Origin: a virus
Length of the DNA stretch: 27,227 bases
Strand: one strand, 5' to 3'
IMG/VR virus record: IMGVR_UViG_3300010370_000193
Location: 1 to 27,227 of that record
The notes below the pieces were generated by a model. It was given only the letters and a program-made list of their open reading frames with translations. It had not been told where the DNA came from and ran no database searches. The number at the start of each line of letters is the position of its first letter. Positions within the stretch are counted from its first letter, which is position 1. Made by a program: the position numbers and the translations under genes. Below are positions 7,900 to 26,544 of the stretch, in pieces.

Positions 7900-8460
7900 A
7901 TGCTTGGAACCAAGTTGTTAATAGACAACATGAAACCAAAACAAGTTCCTGGATTTGAAAACCTTTACTTTGATCAAACTGGACAGCCTTATCAAAAAAT
8001 TGGAGAAAATTTTGAAAAATTAGCTGTTAGTTTTACAAGTACGTATGATCGTGTTTCTGTTTTGCTAGATGGAAAAAAGAAACGTTACCACGTACATGTA
8101 CTAATGGCTGTAACTTTCCTGGATCTTGATCTATCCCTGCATGGAATAAAATCAACTTCTCTTCAGGTTGATCACAAAGACGGAAACAAAAGAAATAATT
8201 CTCTTGACAATCTTGAGGTTGTTACCAAAAGAGAGAACTACAACAGAGCTTTAAAAGCAGGTTGCTATTCCAAGAACGGTTACGTTAGCAAAGGGAAGGC
8301 TAAAAAATCTTTGAGAAGATTTTCGGAAGAGGACATCACAGAAATTAAAAACTTAAAATCTGAAGGACTCTCTTATCGGGAAATTGCAAAACGATTTGAA
8401 TGCAATCACCTAGCCATCTATCAAATCATCAAAGGAAATACCTATCAGGATCTGAGTTAG
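7900..8460 (+). CDS. HNH homing endonuclease, antisense within the capsid intron
   Basis: A 186-residue protein. Residues 64-72 (HVHVLMAVT) and 89-117 (QVDHKDGNKRNN then LDNLEVVTKRENYNRAL) form the HNH_3-type nuclease, with the VDHKDG metal-binding turn. Residues about 140-185 (RFSEEDITEIK, LSYREIAKRF) form a C-terminal helix-turn-helix of the sort that gives intron endonucleases site specificity. Start: ATG 7900 has AAGG four bases upstream; ATG 7930 (MKPKQVPGFE) is an alternative. The gene is A/T-rich compared with the capsid exon, in keeping with horizontal arrival. It runs opposite to the capsid gene and intron, so it needs its own promoter. It would cut an intronless capsid allele to spread the intron. 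Confidence 0.88.
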   Translation: MLGTKLLIDNMKPKQVPGFENLYFDQTGQPYQKIGENFEKLAVSFTSTYDRVSVLLDGKKKRYHVHVLMAVTFLDLDLSLHGIKSTSLQVDHKDGNKRNNSLDNLEVVTKRENYNRALKAGCYSKNGYVSKGKAKKSLRRFSEEDITEIKNLKSEGLSYREIAKRFECNHLAIYQIIKGNTYQDLS

Positions 8461-20959: not shown

Positions 20960-23230
20960 TCATAACTCACCACGCAGAGCTTTTTGCACCAGCTCCATTC
21001 GTTGACGAACAAGCTCACCAGCTTGAGCACGCGCACTACCTTCCGGTGCTGGACCCTGGCGAGAGAACCGCGTCCCTAACGCAGGATCGACACCAGAGGC
21101 ACTGATCCCACTGCCGCGTACAACGCTAGCAGGAAGCTCGGTACCCATGCGACCACGGACCCGTGCACCGCTTTGGCGCATTGCTTCAATCTGGCGGCGC
21201 TGCTTAGCAATCTGCTCACCACCCATTGCTGCTGTGCTGTAGGCCAGACCAGTCGTGGGGTCAATCACTTCAGGGGTTGCTTCTGCAATTGCCGCCAGGG
21301 CAGCAGGATCGAACGAGCGCGGATCAACAACATCTTGAGAGACACCTTTGAAGGTCCGCCCCTCGCGTCCCATAATGCGCTGAGGTTCAACAGCAGTACC
21401 GCGCATTGGGCGGACAGCACCACCAAGCACATCTTCCCGCTTGACCTGCCCTTCTGTTAACACTTCACCGGTATCAACATTTCGATACAGGTAAGGTGTT
21501 GCCTCCAGGGTAGAGCCTGGTTGTGTTGCAAATCCTTCTGCTGCCAGTGCTTCGCGGCGACGACCCACGCCACCAACTTCTTGACGGCCTGCGCCACCAG
21601 CAGCACGCATCTTGTAGTACTCACTGGTTGGCATACCTTCAACTTCAGGAACAACACGGGAGCCCACTACTTCCCCTGTAGCTTCACTAATGACCGGAAC
21701 TTCGCGGATCCCTTCTGTCACTTCAGGGCGCAGTTTGTATAGCATCCCAGAAGCTTGTGCTTGCTCTAAGCGGTTACGTGCAGCTTCAACAGAACCAGCT
21801 GATTGCCCAAGTAACTTTTTGGTGCTAGGTGCTAAACGCTGAAGTTCTGCTTGGCTTGGTTGATAAGTAGCAGGTACACCCAGTTGTTCTAATGCACGTG
21901 CTTTCAGTGCACCTTGCATATTAAGAGCAGCTTGCAGAGATTCAGCGCGGCTTTCAACAACAGGCACACCCGTTTGTGGATTAATGACCTGGCCAAAAGG
22001 TTGATAGAGAGAACCAGTAGAAACACTCTCACCCGATGGAAGTGTCACACGGATCGGTAATCCTGGAGACTCGCTATATGCAGAACGGATTACGCCAGGG
22101 TCGCCCGTTGCTTGAAAAATGTTTTCTGCTTGCTTCTGAACTGTGGCAACACGAGGATCACCAGAGAACCGGCGTTGCACTCCACTTAACGCACCAGCAG
22201 GCATTGGACGTTGCTCACCAAGCAAACCAGTTAACAGCGCAGTTTCAGCGGCACCTTCCTCTACTCCCCCTCGTGGAAGAGAAACAATCTTTTGCGAGCG
22301 GCCGCCAAACATACCAGCAGTTGGTACTTCTGCAGATTCAGCTAAACCTGCAACAGATGGCGCTTGCATGATCGGGCCGTAACCAATCTTGCGCGTAAAT
22401 CGATCAACACGCGAAGCAATGTCAGGATCCAGTCCGGCACCAGAAGTTTGGCTGCCAATAACACTCTGCATTGCTGGCGACGACACCATTTGCCCGCCAC
22501 CTGCCAGAGCAGATTCATGCCAGGGGTCTGGAACCCTGCTTTTAAGTGACTGTTGCACCCGCACTTCTGCAGGAACAACGTTTTGGCCGCGCACTAAACC
22601 AGGTGCAACGTCATCAAGCGTTGATGTTCCGTGGGTTGCTACAGCAGAAGCCCCTTCTGTAGGAGTACGCACCACAAATGCGGGGTCAGCTGCCTCTTCT
22701 GCTAGGCCAAGCGCCGATTTGATCCCAGATTTGGCGCGTTGCCCCAGGTTTTGCAGCATTCCGCCGACGCGACCGACGCCAATGTCACTGCCGGCTGCTT
22801 TTTGTACGCCATAAACGCCAGCAGCAAGGGCGCCGACCCCTAATGCCCCTAATGCAGCCTTTTCAAGGAGAGATTTTGGTCTGTCGGTACCGCTCATATC
22901 GGTATCAACAGCATTATCAGCGTAATGCCGGGTGTAATGCCGCCCCGTTAGGGTGTTATTGAGCTGGCCTGCAACCTTTGGGATGTTGTTATCAGGTGTA
23001 ACTGGGGATTGTAGTAAAGAATTATCACCATAGTGCCGTACAGAGATGGGTTGGTCATAGGCAACATCCCCTTGGAAGCTTTGAACTTCATCAAAACCCC
23101 TAATTTTTCCAAAGCCACGGTTGAAATCGTAGACCTCAGGTGCTAATCGAGCCTTTTCTTGAGGTGTACGAGGGTAAGCATTGCCAGTTAAAGACGCCCA
23201 AAGAGCATAATCTTGGGGAGATACGGGCAT
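20960..23230 (-). CDS. Large promoter-proximal virion-region protein, unknown
   Basis: A 756-residue protein (MPVSPQDYALWASLTGNAYP), the first minus-strand gene after the divergent region. Residues about 130-165 include one hydrophobic Gly/Ala stretch (KAALGALGVGALAAGVYGVQ). The rest is polar, with many Val-Pro, Gly and Arg turns and helical pieces (VEAARNRLEQAQASG, IAKQRRQIEAMRQSGARVRG). No enzymatic motif is seen. Its size, lead position and company of membrane-prone proteins recall large internal or ejected virion proteins. Nothing in the sequence proves that role. Confidence 0.65.
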   Translation of the reverse strand: MPVSPQDYALWASLTGNAYPRTPQEKARLAPEVYDFNRGFGKIRGFDEVQSFQGDVAYDQPISVRHYGDNSLLQSPVTPDNNIPKVAGQLNNTLTGRHYTRHYADNAVDTDMSGTDRPKSLLEKAALGALGVGALAAGVYGVQKAAGSDIGVGRVGGMLQNLGQRAKSGIKSALGLAEEAADPAFVVRTPTEGASAVATHGTSTLDDVAPGLVRGQNVVPAEVRVQQSLKSRVPDPWHESALAGGGQMVSSPAMQSVIGSQTSGAGLDPDIASRVDRFTRKIGYGPIMQAPSVAGLAESAEVPTAGMFGGRSQKIVSLPRGGVEEGAAETALLTGLLGEQRPMPAGALSGVQRRFSGDPRVATVQKQAENIFQATGDPGVIRSAYSESPGLPIRVTLPSGESVSTGSLYQPFGQVINPQTGVPVVESRAESLQAALNMQGALKARALEQLGVPATYQPSQAELQRLAPSTKKLLGQSAGSVEAARNRLEQAQASGMLYKLRPEVTEGIREVPVISEATGEVVGSRVVPEVEGMPTSEYYKMRAAGGAGRQEVGGVGRRREALAAEGFATQPGSTLEATPYLYRNVDTGEVLTEGQVKREDVLGGAVRPMRGTAVEPQRIMGREGRTFKGVSQDVVDPRSFDPAALAAIAEATPEVIDPTTGLAYSTAAMGGEQIAKQRRQIEAMRQSGARVRGRMGTELPASVVRGSGISASGVDPALGTRFSRQGPAPEGSARAQAGELVRQRMELVQKALRGEL

Positions 23231-23477
23231 CGTTATAAAAATATCTTGATATAAACGATTTTAGGCGCAATCAATACAGTATTATCTCCAGCAGAAGACC
23301 CCTAACGGCCTTAAAAAACAGCCCTTTTGGGGTGAAAATCGCGGCAGACATCAAGCTCGCTCCGCTCGCGGGAGAGCGTGAGAGGAAAAAAAGAAAGGGT
23401 GGGAGTGTATGCTCCCTGCGGTCGCAGACAGCCGTAAGAGAAAGTTCTATTCGGCTGTGTCCTTTGGTTTATTTACC
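23231..23477. promoter_or_regulatory. Divergent intergenic region between late and early modules
   Basis: No gene is supported here; a frame open from 23409 is better started at 23478. A/T-rich sequence at 23231-23290 offers candidate boxes for both directions: minus-strand TTGATT then TATATC about 15 bases later, and plus-strand TTGATA at 23255 with TATTAT at 23280. An imperfect inverted repeat ACCCC (23298-23302) / GGGGT (23329-23333) with inner GGC/GCC follows. After it come a GC hairpin CGCTC/GAGCG (23358-23378) and two abutting hairpins, GGGAG/CTCCC (23401-23416) and CTGCG/CGCAG (23416-23427). Both transcription units probably start here. Confidence 0.5.
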
Positions 23478-23636
23478 ATGACCTATCAAGTTGAGATTGC
23501 AAGCTACTCTGAGTTTGCACAGGCTTATCTGCAAGGCTGCGAAGAACGGTTCAGTTCTTACAGCGAAGCAGAAGATTATATCGCAACATTTGAAGAATGG
23601 GAGCAACCGATGCTTTGCATCCGAGAGTATAAGTGA
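23478..23636 (+). CDS. Small acidic protein, unknown
   Basis: A 52-residue protein starting MTYQVEIASYSEFAQAYLQG. The frame is open from 23409, but the upstream part reads through a hairpin pair and is poorly protein-like, so ATG 23478 (preceded by TTACC, no Shine-Dalgarno) is preferred. It is acidic and aromatic (EAEDYIATFEEWEQPMLCI), as are many short early phage proteins that bind host factors. No family is recognised. It leads the plus-strand module. Confidence 0.6.
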   Translation: MTYQVEIASYSEFAQAYLQGCEERFSSYSEAEDYIATFEEWEQPMLCIREYK

Positions 23637-23678
23637 ACGTTACCTCCGGGGGAGCAGCCGCTCCTTCCGGTCGCTTCC

Positions 23679-23701
23679 TAGGTACAATTACCTACCTTTT
23701 T
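23679..23701 (+). terminator. Intrinsic terminator after the 52-residue gene
   Basis: Six-bp perfect stem TAGGTA/TACCTA with a 4-base loop, then CC and five T residues. It is the second of two tandem hairpins 43 bases after the stop codon. The short A/T-rich stem suggests partial termination. Confidence 0.5.
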
Positions 23702-23867
23702 AACTCTCAACTGACGAACACCTGCTAACCTTCAAACTGTTTGTGTCCCAAAATACAACACCCTTGTACTACTTTTAATCCCCTTAAATCCCAGTCATAC
23801 CAACGCTTCTCAAGCTTTATTGGCCAGGCATCTCGTAGCGTCGAGACCGGGCCAAAAGTTTGCGCCT

Positions 23868-23902
23868 GTGGAAAACTCAGGGCTTTGAGCATAGTTTTCC
23901 AC
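23868..23902. repeat. Perfect 10-bp inverted repeat, DnaA-box-like arms
   Basis: GTGGAAAACT and AGTTTTCCAC separated by 15 bases. Each arm extended by one base (TGTGGAAAA) differs at one position from a consensus DnaA box in reverse orientation. It could be an operator, origin element or RNA hairpin; it has no U-run, so a terminator is less likely. Confidence 0.6.
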
Positions 23903-24076
23903 GTTCTTATCCCTCGTTCCGTTCCCTTCGGTCACTGTAGTTTTTATCTAATAAGAGAAAGTTTTAACAACGATTGTTCGATGATTGCCTCCAGGGACCG
24001 ATTAAAGGTCTCTAGATGCAGTCTTCTGACTGCTGCCTCCAGCGGAGATAGGCACCGCACAACGGAGCTAACCCTA

Positions 24077-24235
24077 GTGGTTAACCACAACTACCAGGTG
24101 ATCCTTGAGGATCTCATCGAGAATCTCCAGTCTGCAGGACAGGAGTATACCGACGAACAGGCAGAAGCCTGGGCCTGGGATCGGTTCTTCGAACAGTATC
24201 CAGAATACTGTGAACTTCCGGAGAACTACGGCTGA
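24077..24235 (+). CDS. Small acidic protein, unknown
   Basis: A 52-residue protein read from GTG 24077 (MVNHNYQVILEDLIENLQSA), with GGAG ten bases upstream. The upstream extension of the same frame is unconvincing, whereas this part is a typical acidic early-protein sequence (YTDEQAEAWAWDRFFEQYPE). It resembles the acidic, aromatic style of the 52-residue protein at 23478. The stop is followed by a hairpin pair. No family is recognised. Confidence 0.55.
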   Translation: MVNHNYQVILEDLIENLQSAGQEYTDEQAEAWAWDRFFEQYPEYCELPENYG

Positions 24236-24250
24236 TCCGTACAAGCGGGT

Positions 24251-24297
24251 CCGGAGGTGCAAACCCTCCGGCAGTTATTGCCTGCAGTTTTGCAGGC
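24251..24297 (+). promoter_or_regulatory. Tandem hairpin pair in the spacer
   Basis: CCGGAGG, loop TGCAAAC, CCTCCGG (24251-24271; 7 perfect bp) then GCCTGCA, loop GTTT, TGCAGGC (24280-24297; 7 perfect bp). The first looks like a tRNA T-arm but no tRNA can be built around it. It lies between two small genes. Confidence 0.7.
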
Positions 24298-24321
24298 ACC
24301 TTTGCACACCTTACCTCAGCT

Positions 24322-24498
24322 ATGAAGACTTTCTTCTATCTCTACGTTTGCTGCACTGCTGTGCTCTCCGTTGTTGCTACAACCACGGCAATCGAATTGA
24401 TTGACAAAGCCACCGCCAGGCAGTGCCGTAACCCTGTCGAGACGCAAGCGGTTAAGGACTGGTGCCGTGACAACCAGTACGAGATTGCGAATCGCTAA
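24322..24498 (+). CDS. Small exported or membrane-anchored Cys-containing protein
   Basis: A 58-residue protein starting MKTFFYLYVCCTAVLSVVAT. Residues 2-25 are a signal-like or membrane helix; the rest is polar with two Cys (ARQCRNPVE, DWCRDNQYEIANR), which could form a disulphide if exported. The ATG is preceded by CTCAGCT without a Shine-Dalgarno, like its neighbours. Spacing (24 bases after a hairpin pair, 62 before the next gene) fits the module. No family is recognised; it may act at the host envelope. Confidence 0.6.
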   Translation: MKTFFYLYVCCTAVLSVVATTTAIELIDKATARQCRNPVETQAVKDWCRDNQYEIANR

Positions 24499-24560
24499 TC
24501 AGTGACTCACATTCTCCTATCTTCTATTACCGTTTACCGTCACCTTCACCATTCATTACC

Positions 24561-24782
24561 ATGTCATTCTTCAACAATGTTGTCAAAGTCACCGTTGCCA
24601 GCGGTGCTGTTATTGGCGCCGCTGTTGCTTATGCTCGTCTCAATGATGAGCAACGAGACAAAGTTAAACGAGGTGTGAACTCTGTCCGCCGCAAGGTGGC
24701 AGAGGTTATCGCACCTAATGATGGTGCCTACACCATCCCGAAAGAAGTTGAGGAAGAGTTAAACGCTCTGCTCAACGATTGA
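24561..24782 (+). CDS. Small membrane protein, YtxH-like layout
   Basis: A 73-residue protein. Residues 7-26 (VVKVTVASGAVIGAAVAYAR) form one membrane helix, followed by a basic amphipathic helix (EQRDKVKRGVNSVRRKVAEV) and an acidic tail. The layout resembles small YtxH-type proteins, but the length is too short for a firm match. The ATG follows TTACC with no Shine-Dalgarno. It probably localises to the host cytoplasmic membrane. Confidence 0.65.
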   Translation: MSFFNNVVKVTVASGAVIGAAVAYARLNDEQRDKVKRGVNSVRRKVAEVIAPNDGAYTIPKEVEEELNALLND

Positions 24783-24793
24783 TGATCACACGG

Positions 24794-24829
24794 AGGGGAG
24801 CTTGCTCCCTTCTCTGTGGTCTTCACAGA
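24794..24829 (+). promoter_or_regulatory. Tandem hairpin pair in the spacer
   Basis: AGGGGAGC, loop TT, GCTCCCTT (24794-24811) then TCTGTG, loop GTCTT, CACAGA (24813-24829). The pair occupies the spacer between the genes ending at 24782 and starting at 24854, with no U-run after the second stem. Confidence 0.7.
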
Positions 24830-24853
24830 TCACGTTCCTTATTGTTTTGCATC

Positions 24854-25078
24854 ATGGAATCCTTCATCTACGCCAAGGGCAACGACGGTTATCTCGTCAC
24901 CATCCGTGGAGACTTCGCAGAGATGACTAAGGTTGACCTTGAGCAACACCGCTCCAAGTACATCCGTCTTGAAGCACCGGTGGATCACATCCGCCTCTCT
25001 GTCAAGAAGCTTCTCGACCAGGGCTACCGCCTGTTCAACCAGGTGGACCTGGAGTGGAAGCGCTTCATCGAAGCATAG
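24854..25078 (+). CDS. Small soluble protein, unknown
   Basis: A 74-residue protein (MESFIYAKGNDGYLVTIRGD). The frame is open further upstream, but ATG 24854 leaves the hairpin pair outside the coding region and gives a compact protein with beta strands then helices (VDHIRLSVKKLLDQGYRLFN). It has mixed charge and no membrane segment. No family is recognised; it is probably an early accessory protein. Confidence 0.62.
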   Translation: MESFIYAKGNDGYLVTIRGDFAEMTKVDLEQHRSKYIRLEAPVDHIRLSVKKLLDQGYRLFNQVDLEWKRFIEA

Positions 25079-25088
25079 AACGAAACCT

Positions 25089-25133
25089 GGGGAGCCTCAC
25101 CGCTCCCTTCGGTCGCTCCCTGACATAGGGAGC
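25089..25133 (+). promoter_or_regulatory. Tandem hairpins with interchangeable arms
   Basis: GGGAGC/GCTCCC (25090-25107) then GCTCCCT/AGGGAGC (25115-25133, loop GACAT). The arms are near-identical, so the first GGGAGC can pair instead with the second GCTCCC, and the first GCTCCC with the last GGGAGC. Mutually exclusive folds are typical of attenuators and RNA switches. The next gene begins 22 bases later. Confidence 0.65.
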
Positions 25134-25154
25134 CTGACGAGTTCCTGCTTTGCC

Positions 25155-25406
25155 ATGAAATTCAGCCTCTCTGAAATTATCCTCGACAACAAAGAGTTCA
25201 TTGCTGCATGTTCTGCAGTGCTCTTTGGTACCGGTTTCGGTTTGTTGGGTTGTGTTGTATTGAACAAAGTATTGAACAAACATGTACTCACAACATGTAA
25301 TAGGAATCTCAATGAAATTGTGGTTCTGAAGACTGCTGTGGGCGACAGTTATGGTTGCGTGTCTCGCAAGGTTCTGCAAGGACCTGCGGAGGCTCTGAAA
25401 CCATGA
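25155..25406 (+). CDS. Small membrane protein, unknown
   Basis: An 83-residue protein (MKFSLSEIILDNKEFIAACS). Residues 16-36 (ACSAVLFGTGFGLLGCVVLN) are a membrane helix; the C-terminal 45 residues are polar with two Cys. The stop codon overlaps the next start (ATGA at 25403), so translation is coupled to the 20-residue peptide gene that follows. No family is recognised. Confidence 0.6.
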   Translation: MKFSLSEIILDNKEFIAACSAVLFGTGFGLLGCVVLNKVLNKHVLTTCNRNLNEIVVLKTAVGDSYGCVSRKVLQGPAEALKP

Positions 25407-25465
25407 GAAAGATTCTTCTTTCTTCTGCAGTTTTAACTGCCATCATGTTGTTCTTTTGCCTGTAA
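25403..25465 (+). CDS. 20-residue hydrophobic micropeptide
   Basis: MRKILLSSAVLTAIMLFFCL: two basic residues, then a continuous hydrophobic run with a Cys next to last. It overlaps the upstream gene by 4 nt (ATGA) and the downstream gene by 1 nt (TAATG), strong evidence of a real coupled gene despite its size. It resembles a signal or lipoprotein leader, or a tiny membrane modulator. Function is unknown. Confidence 0.55.
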   Translation: MRKILLSSAVLTAIMLFFCL

Positions 25466-25737
25466 TGGAAGAAGTTACTTACAGCCATGACACCGTCTGG
25501 CTGCTGCTTCATTCTCTGCCAATCATGGATTACTCCAGGAAGAATGAGCCGCGCATGTGGCGAAAGTTCATGGAGCTTGTTGCAGATGAAACTGCACAAG
25601 GTTATCCGGATACCTGGAACACACCGTTCACAATCAACAAGATTGCGAGCGATCTAGGTTCCTACAAATTGCTTCTTGATATCTGGCTCCAGGTAGAAGA
25701 AGCAATGCCCGATGTCTACAATCCTATTCACAAATGA
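25465..25737 (+). CDS. Small helical protein, unknown
   Basis: A 90-residue protein (MEEVTYSHDTVWLLLHSLPI). A TTG nine bases upstream keeps the frame, but ATG 25465 overlaps the preceding stop as TAATG and is preferred. It is acidic and helical (RMWRKFMELVADETAQGYPD, KLLLDIWLQVEEAMPD), with no membrane segment. Its stop overlaps the next start (ATGA). No family is recognised. Confidence 0.62.
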   Translation: MEEVTYSHDTVWLLLHSLPIMDYSRKNEPRMWRKFMELVADETAQGYPDTWNTPFTINKIASDLGSYKLLLDIWLQVEEAMPDVYNPIHK

Positions 25738-25973
25738 ACTACACCTTTTACCTACCTGGAATTAACCAGCTGATTGGCATTAGCCAGGAGGACTGGGACT
25801 TCCTCTGTGAGCGTGCAGAGGAGAACAACGTTCTGCCTGCCACGCTTGCCTCTAGGATCATCGCCAACGAGTTGGCTCAGTGGCGTGATGAAATTCATTA
25901 TGCCGAGGAGCAGGAAGCTGCTCAAGCCAACCGAGAGATGAACATAGAGAAAGTTATAGAAGAGATTGTTTAA
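25734..25973 (+). CDS. Small acidic protein, unknown
   Basis: A 79-residue protein (MNYTFYLPGINQLIGISQED) whose ATG overlaps the upstream TGA. The middle, NNVLPATLASRIIANELAQW, loosely recalls ribbon-helix-helix or tail-anchoring helices. The C-terminal third is a Glu-rich helix. It is the last of four translationally coupled genes (25155-25973). The resemblance is not strong enough to claim DNA binding. Confidence 0.62.
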   Translation: MNYTFYLPGINQLIGISQEDWDFLCERAEENNVLPATLASRIIANELAQWRDEIHYAEEQEAAQANREMNIEKVIEEIV

Positions 25974-26005
25974 TCTTCTCTTTAGCTTTCCAGATGTCTG
26001 CACTT

Positions 26006-26047
26006 AGCCCATCCTTTGTGGTGGGCTTCCTGCAGACTTCGGTCTGC
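26006..26047 (+). promoter_or_regulatory. Tandem hairpins upstream of the SSB-like gene
   Basis: AGCCCA-T-CC / GG-TGGGCT (26006-26027) then GCAGAC, UUCG-type tetraloop TTCG, GTCTGC (26032-26047), followed by TTT. The start codon of the SSB-like gene is 23 bases downstream. A UUCG-capped stem is very stable and may shield or regulate the message. Confidence 0.7.
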
Positions 26048-26070
26048 TTTGCACACTCGCTAGACACCTC

Positions 26071-26478
26071 ATGTCTTCTGCTAACAACGGCAACCTTGTC
26101 GGTACCATCGTGTCCGACATCACGACTAAGAATCCTAACGATTCCCTGTCTGTGACTCAGTTCCGTGTTGCACCGCTCGACGCCAAGGAGGAGGATTCTC
26201 CTATCCCTGTGGTTGCTTACAACGGCGTCGGCCAGAACATCGCGCAGCGTTACAACAAGGGTGACACCGTTGCCCTTCAGACGCGTCTGCGTTATGTCAC
26301 CTGGATGACACCGGAAGGCGAGCCCCGTGGCCGCATGGAGGTCATCGTGACTTCTATCCTGACGGTCCGCCTGGGTCAGATCAGCACAGCACAGCGCACT
26401 GCTGAGGCTGCTGGCGTTGTTGAAGCCACTCCGCTTCGCAAGGCTGCTGAGCCCACCCTGGAGACCGTTCCCTTCTGA
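26071..26478 (+). CDS. SSB-like single-stranded DNA-binding protein
   Basis: A 135-residue protein. Residues 8-105 show the OB-fold layout of small SSB proteins: NLVGTIVSDITTKN, VTQFRVAPLD, IPVVAYNGVGQNIAQRYNKG, then DTVALQTRLRYVTWMTPEGE and MEVIVTSI. The pattern (first strand ending in a Gly-turn, central V-A-NG--QNIA-RY-KGD, later aromatic strand) fits the bacterial/phage SSB family. The C-terminus (EPTLETVPF) is short and acidic and ends in Pro-Phe, like the partner-binding SSB tail. It would coat ssDNA during replication. It follows a hairpin pair and has no obvious Shine-Dalgarno. Confidence 0.75.
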   Translation: MSSANNGNLVGTIVSDITTKNPNDSLSVTQFRVAPLDAKEEDSPIPVVAYNGVGQNIAQRYNKGDTVALQTRLRYVTWMTPEGEPRGRMEVIVTSILTVRLGQISTAQRTAEAAGVVEATPLRKAAEPTLETVPF

Positions 26479-26491
26479 TTTCTGCATCAAG

Positions 26492-26544
26492 GCCTGAGTA
26501 ACATCAGGCTTTCTTGCAGGATTCAATTCCTGCACAATCTTTTT
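26492..26544 (+). promoter_or_regulatory. Tandem hairpins after the SSB-like gene, second terminator-like
   Basis: GCCTGA, loop GTAACA, TCAGGC (26492-26509) then TGCAGGA, loop TTCAAT, TCCTGCA (26515-26534), followed by CAATC and five T residues. The first hairpin is trailed by TTTCTT. The second could act as an intrinsic terminator. Confidence 0.7.

Follow-up and report, generated by a model that had tools for sequence, protein, structure and literature searches.

Hammerhead, three-strand and three-way-junction RNA elements at the gene junctions of a cyanobacterial virus

The window analysed here is the whole of IMG/VR record IMGVR_UViG_3300010370_000193, 27,227 nucleotides (nt; 27.2 kb) from a freshwater cyanobacterial virus, and the subject of this work is a set of structured RNA elements lying between its plus-strand genes. 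The structural module is on the minus strand, starting at 23230 and extending leftwards. The plus-strand module begins at 23478 and is formed by small genes (called here A-I, K, and N) together with the gene for a single-strand DNA-binding protein (SSB). The portal-like protein of the window matched a single phage record, Synechococcus phage S-EIV1 (KJ410740), with 52% identity to its counterpart there, and comparison of the module with phage records by DNA similarity gave no match. Syntenic relatives were present in IMG/VR, with module gene proteins approximately 40-83% identical; they are cited by locus number (L) where needed. An unannotated homologue of gene F was also observed in S-EIV1 (KJ410740:43024-43188, minus strand), within the same cluster.

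A preliminary description of this DNA had proposed, from seven listed cases, that nearly every spacer of the module holds two tandem RNA hairpins. We counted a hairpin when it had at least 5 base pairs (bp) and −6 kcal/mol or better, and 300 dinucleotide shuffles served as background. All seven pairs folded as claimed, and the spacers far exceeded the shuffles: at least two hairpins were present in 7 of 8 spacers against a shuffled mean of 0.48 (maximum 3), and the total was 16 hairpins against 3.4 ± 1.7. Whole-spacer folding z-scores ranged from −2.4 to −4.5 in the spacers at 23637, 24236, 24783, 25079, 25974, and 26479, and the spacer 24499-24560 was free of hairpins, as had been stated. One pair, 23401-23427, did not go beyond chance, its second stem having 3 bp in the fold and its spacer a z-score of −0.1. 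The pair at 23646-23694 is present, but it looks like half of a degraded hammerhead with a terminator behind it, and this hammerhead-like half was unmatched in every search run; the conserved pair of the same spacer, at 23993-24033, had been missed.

Alignment with relatives changed the picture of a single architecture with conserved structure and no conserved sequence. The repeated pairs and the conservation of structure held, but they belong to three RNA classes, H, S, and T, distributed at about one per junction, and each class has conserved bases of its own. The pair at 25090-25133 is real and corresponds to stems III and I of a hammerhead rather than to a loose pair; the second hairpins at 24794, 26006, and 26492 are also real, each being one of two mutually exclusive folds. 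The elements usually run from the upstream stop codon to a point some 20 nt ahead of the next start, and few have U-runs (Table 1). In the counts given below, many contigs are near-duplicates, so that element numbers are not numbers of independent events, and some loci were fetched by S or T sequence patterns, which inflates the apparent sequence conservation.

Table 1: RNA elements, other hairpins, and genes of the plus-strand module in the window.
Feature	Position	Strand	Basis or remarks
Class S, upstream of gene B	23980-24033	+	41.4 bits; absent from the preliminary description
Class T, B-C spacer, holding the gene B UGA stop (24233-24235)	24231-24298	+	77.7 bits
Class S, D-E spacer, starting with the gene D UGA stop	24780-24834	+	58.1 bits
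Class H, type II hammerhead ribozyme, E-F spacer	25078-25144	+	core bases, covarying stems
Class S, I-SSB spacer; second hairpin with UUCG loop	25993-26047	+	53.2 bits
Class S, after SSB, starting with the SSB UGA stop	26476-26534	+	52.1 bits
Weak hairpin pair in the divergent leader region, in none of the three classes	23401-23427	+	folding
Hairpin like the 5′ half of a hammerhead (GAACGUUACC..GGUCGCUUCC), then terminator-like hairpin with U-run	23646-23703	+	sequence; inference
Gene A	23478-23636	+	
Gene B	24077-24235	+	GTG start assumed; L027 protein 92% identical
Gene C	24322-24498	+	
Gene D	24561-24782	+	
Gene E	24854-25078	+	
Gene F	25155-25406	+	
Gene H	25465-25737	+	
Gene I	25734-25973	+	
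SSB (single-strand DNA-binding protein)	26071-26478	+	PF00436, E 2e-9; phrog_44

Class H has the order GAAC-GAAA-CC(stem III)GG-U-C / GCUCCC..GGGAGC-CUGACGA-GUUC, that is, stem II (GAAC/GUUC), GAAA, stem III (ACC..GGU), stem I (GCUCCC/GGGAGC), and CUGACGA, and stem II opens with the G of the gene E UAG stop. All the features that define a hammerhead core were found: CUGANGA, GAAA, UH at the cleavage site, and the type II order. Cleavage should occur after C25114 (GGUC^GCUCCC). The complete core is present in five lineages (the window, L005, L024, L043, and L027, the last with two copies), and among five sequences 6 stem pairs were changed on both sides, against 1.9 ± 1.0 in shuffled and at most 1 in slid controls. 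The Rfam model RF02276 left the window copy undetected and gave only noise across phage records; with the second L027 copy (L027:1044) it reached an E-value of 6e-4 and 26.4 bits, below the curated cut-off of 37. We read this shortfall as narrowness of the model, because its stem III is shorter, while the defining core and stems are present in H. Because phage intergenic hammerheads are already known, H adds a member to an existing family. A hammerhead pattern search of IMG/VR returned 82 stretches from varied phages, so the lineage of the window is not alone in having type II hammerheads. These stretches (L052-L131) are hammerhead-like with a GGAC/GTCC stem II, and some have three or four copies within a few kb. 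In L004 (3454-4022) and L009 (3468-4036) H is disrupted by an HNH-like gene (VDHIDRNGENN) inserted into the loop of stem I, and the remnant has lost part of stem I and the first core base.

The plan of class S was revealed by aligning orthologous spacers and can be written as GA-Y-X ... P2 hairpin ... X′-Y-UC ... X″. The strand X′ pairs either upstream with X, forming helix P1 with a conserved pyrimidine mismatch and enclosing a hairpin, or downstream with X″, and this second pairing is the second hairpin of the preliminary description. The element has approximately 17 conserved pairs, with the pyrimidine mismatch and an internal loop. A first loose search for strand exchange was uninformative, with 54 plus-strand matches in the window alone, and the GA-Y/Y-UC signature was added; with it, the descriptor found four window copies with GA/UC ends, each in a module spacer and on the plus strand. 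A model was trained on 24 copies, partly selected for pairing; the E-values of such home-made models are rough. It detected one to four elements in each of the 22 phage records searched, S-EIV1 included (E 1e-6), and 133 matches, 116 of them distinct, over 91 further related IMG/VR loci, with no match in 743 kb of other phage DNA. In S-EIV1, an S element lies at KJ410740:42658-42719 on the minus strand. S was also present in 42 of 65 loci scanned, most of which had been fetched by the T pattern.

Pair counting in S gave 337 doubly changed cells against 79 ± 9 in shuffled and 118 in the best slid control. Taking into account that this alignment was fitted to the model and that X″ is not paired by the model, the test of X″ is weightier: in 94% of the elements X″ forms at least 6 bp with its own X′, against 34% when X′ was swapped between elements, and X:X′ was fully paired in 68% against 13% swapped. 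The three strands covary jointly, as in U/A/U, G/C/G, and C/G/C at the first position, and G-U pairs occur in X:X′ in 40/116 and 32/116 elements at two positions. Of 101 elements, 94 were more stable in the P1 fold, whose median advantage was 3.6 kcal/mol, so the X′:X″ fold, P3, would be expected only once P1 has been opened or cut.

Class T is a junction of short stems followed by a hairpin. In the window, P1 is formed by 24231-24234 and 24272-24275 (GCUG/CAGU), P2 by AUCCG/CGGGU, and P3 occupies 24251-24271 with the loop UGCAAAC; the downstream hairpin P4 (24279-24298) is replaced in many relatives by a pseudoknot-like fold. The T pattern was found in at least 120 IMG/VR stretches, and in 257 Gb of bacterial and archaeal genomes it gave one match with P3 unpaired, about the chance expectation. 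The loop bases were fixed by the search pattern, and divergent copies found by the model differ there. In the pairing of T, 134 cells were doubly changed, whereas shuffled controls gave 34 ± 6 and slid ones no more than 31. S-EIV1 carries two T elements, at KJ410740:43420-43504 and 43715-43798. When the T model was run on 73 loci of other phages that bear hammerheads, it matched once. T7-like marine cyanopodoviruses (L171, L178, L184, L277, and similar loci) also have single T elements, which precede early genes and lie upstream of an RNA polymerase gene with about 65% DNA identity to Prochlorococcus P-SCSP1 phages. A small pseudoknot-like stretch, UGCCU-CCA-GCGG-AGAU-AGGCA-CCGC, stands before gene B at 24034-24058; many T elements carry the same fold just past the junction, with matching changes (GUGG/CCAC, GCAGG/CCUGC).

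None of the aligned S and T elements has the hammerhead core CUGANGA/GAAA. The scanned S and T elements had no significant family match in Rfam 15 (4227 models), and a Rfam scan across the module with E up to 1 gave nothing. Twister-sister, considered for T on account of the UGCAA loop, was unsupported by Rfam.

A stop codon of an open reading frame (ORF) of at least 30 codons lies close by on the same strand in 115 of 116 S elements. In 83 of the 116, such an ORF ends in the UGA of P1 itself, with 14 and 12 for the other two frames, and P1 of T contains the stop of the upstream ORF in 80 of 105. L205 and L207 have seven and eight S and T elements, respectively, within about 2.5 kb, nearly one per gene boundary. 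S, T, and H occupy gene junctions interchangeably. At the E-F junction L030 has S where the window, L005, L024, L043, and L027 have H; before SSB there is T in L027 and L028, where the upstream gene differs, and S in the others; and before gene D there is T in L004 and no element in the window. Selection on RNA, which the preliminary description had suggested, is strongly supported by compensatory changes in relatives in all three classes, by the G-U pairs, by the match with gene direction, and by the presence of the elements in relatives and in the isolate S-EIV1. Of the functions that it had offered, processing and end protection are the best match: a hammerhead is among the elements, and in a relative its junction is taken by a different class.

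We therefore propose, with about even confidence, that H, S, and T are mRNA-processing junctions, at which the transcript is cut within the element and a hairpin is left on each new end. The proposal is extended to the three classes because H should self-cleave between its own two hairpins. The polycistronic transcript would be cut inside the element, between the two hairpins, by self-cleavage after GGUC at 25114 in H, and in S and T by a host nuclease of RNase III or RNase E type or by the RNA itself. The upstream message would thus receive a hairpin at its 3′ end and the downstream message one at its 5′ end. Products of the type expected from H would also arise if S were cut between P2 and X′ or T between P1 and P4, and in S the X′ strand released from X would refold with X″ as the new 5′ hairpin. 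Considering that the base helix usually contains the stop codon, we also suggest that a terminating ribosome may hold the element open, which would delay cutting until a pause in the translation of the upstream gene. In the stronger form of the proposal, which we regard as rather unlikely, S, T, or both would be a new class of small self-cleaving ribozyme, and up to three interchangeable ribosome-gated ribozymes would cut between the genes.

Several points weigh against processing. Cleavage of S and T is argued from their occupying the place of H and from their two hairpins, and both classes are devoid of a recognised catalytic core. The exchange of H for S is known from one lineage, L030, and that of T for S before SSB occurs with a different upstream gene. 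In addition, an element is strictly required at no junction, as H is destroyed in L004 and L009 and none is present in the C-D spacer.

The same position of the stop codon, in the base helix of most S and T elements, may be explained by translational coupling, in which a ribosome stopping within P1 unfolds it and alters initiation at the next gene while S and T are not cut at all. The narrow spacing to the next start agrees with this (from X″, a median of 22 nt with a 10th-90th percentile range of 17-27 in the 109 S elements with a start found), as does the low number of leaders with a Shine-Dalgarno-like motif, 18 of these 109. However, both folds of S leave the next start and the approximately 20 nt before it uncovered, by which masking of the start site is unlikely, and it is hard to see what a hammerhead at an equivalent junction would do for coupling; we consider this explanation possible, with a low probability. 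The very stable hairpins in nearly every spacer and the tolerated insertion of the HNH gene into H would also be expected if the hairpins merely blocked exonucleases or kept the folding of neighbouring cistrons separate, H being an incidental resident. This we judge improbable, given that it leaves unexplained the three-strand covariation of S and the conserved loops and junction of T. In its alternative folds S resembles an attenuator, and the hairpin at 26515-26534 has a T-rich tail, yet a U-rich tail is present in only 3 of 116 S elements and TTTT in 1, which makes terminators or attenuators between the genes very unlikely. That X, X′, and X″ are also inverted and direct repeats in DNA might point to operators, or to recombination or replication sites, an idea rendered scarcely credible by the frequent G-U pairs of X:X′, by the near-constant position of S after a same-strand stop, and by arm sequences that vary among spacers of one genome.

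Other observations were made in the window. A motif like CTTTGCAC recurs at 24305, 24842, 25149, and 26048 and in relatives, 5-25 nt upstream of many starts; the leaders that carry it are Shine-Dalgarno-poor, and it is common to the window and its nearest relatives and rare in the wider set. The non-coding sequence CTTAAATCCCAGTCATACCAACGCTTCT, at about 23780-23802, is near-identical in L004 (about 1675-1705) and is perhaps the promoter region of the module. At 7900-8460 on the plus strand, opposed to the surrounding structural genes, there is an ORF with the HNH-like motif VDHKDGNKRNN, probably a homing endonuclease.

RNA elements at phage gene junctions are already known as a kind; what is added here are S and T, two covarying RNA families outside Rfam, apparently specific to cyanophages, which share gene junctions with a hammerhead. 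The replacement of a hammerhead by S in a relative provides a context in which the function of phage hammerheads can be tested, and the function of S and T is probably that of the hammerhead at those junctions. New self-cleaving RNAs have previously been found by searching near hammerheads, which makes S and T good candidates for assays. Likewise, since the base helix contains the stop codon, mRNA processing may be linked to the termination of translation in a way that experiments could test.

The open-licence literature yielded no paper on S, on T, or on hammerheads in the S-EIV1-like phage group. The cyanophage motifs manA, wcaG, and PhotoRC-II (PMC2864571) are structured cyanophage RNAs, as are S and T, but they are leaders of metabolic genes and are included in Rfam, where the scanned S and T elements matched no family. 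The closest relation of H is the type II hammerhead (Perreault et al. 2011, PMC3088659; Rfam RF02276), with intergenic cases in phages PaP3 and Bcep176. H shares with it the permuted order, in which stem II is open and stems III and I are closed, as well as the full core and a phage intergenic site; it differs in a stem III longer than the one modelled in Rfam and in showing no evident loop I pseudoknot of the kind that PMC3088659 describes. S and T differ from this family in having no hammerhead core. With attenuators and bistable leaders S shares an X′ that has two alternative partners, and it differs from them in having no terminator U-run and a next start that neither fold covers. In phage T7, RNase III processing sites lie between the early genes as irregular hairpins with internal loops and split the polycistronic mRNA. 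S and T differ from these sites in the conserved competing third strand of S, in the three-way junction of T, and in the stop codon inside the base helix, and cutting is in their case what we infer. The likeness would lie in an intergenic irregular hairpin with internal loops, one per junction, with a proposed splitting of the mRNA into pieces with hairpin ends, and it extends to the presence of T before early genes of T7-like cyanopodoviruses.

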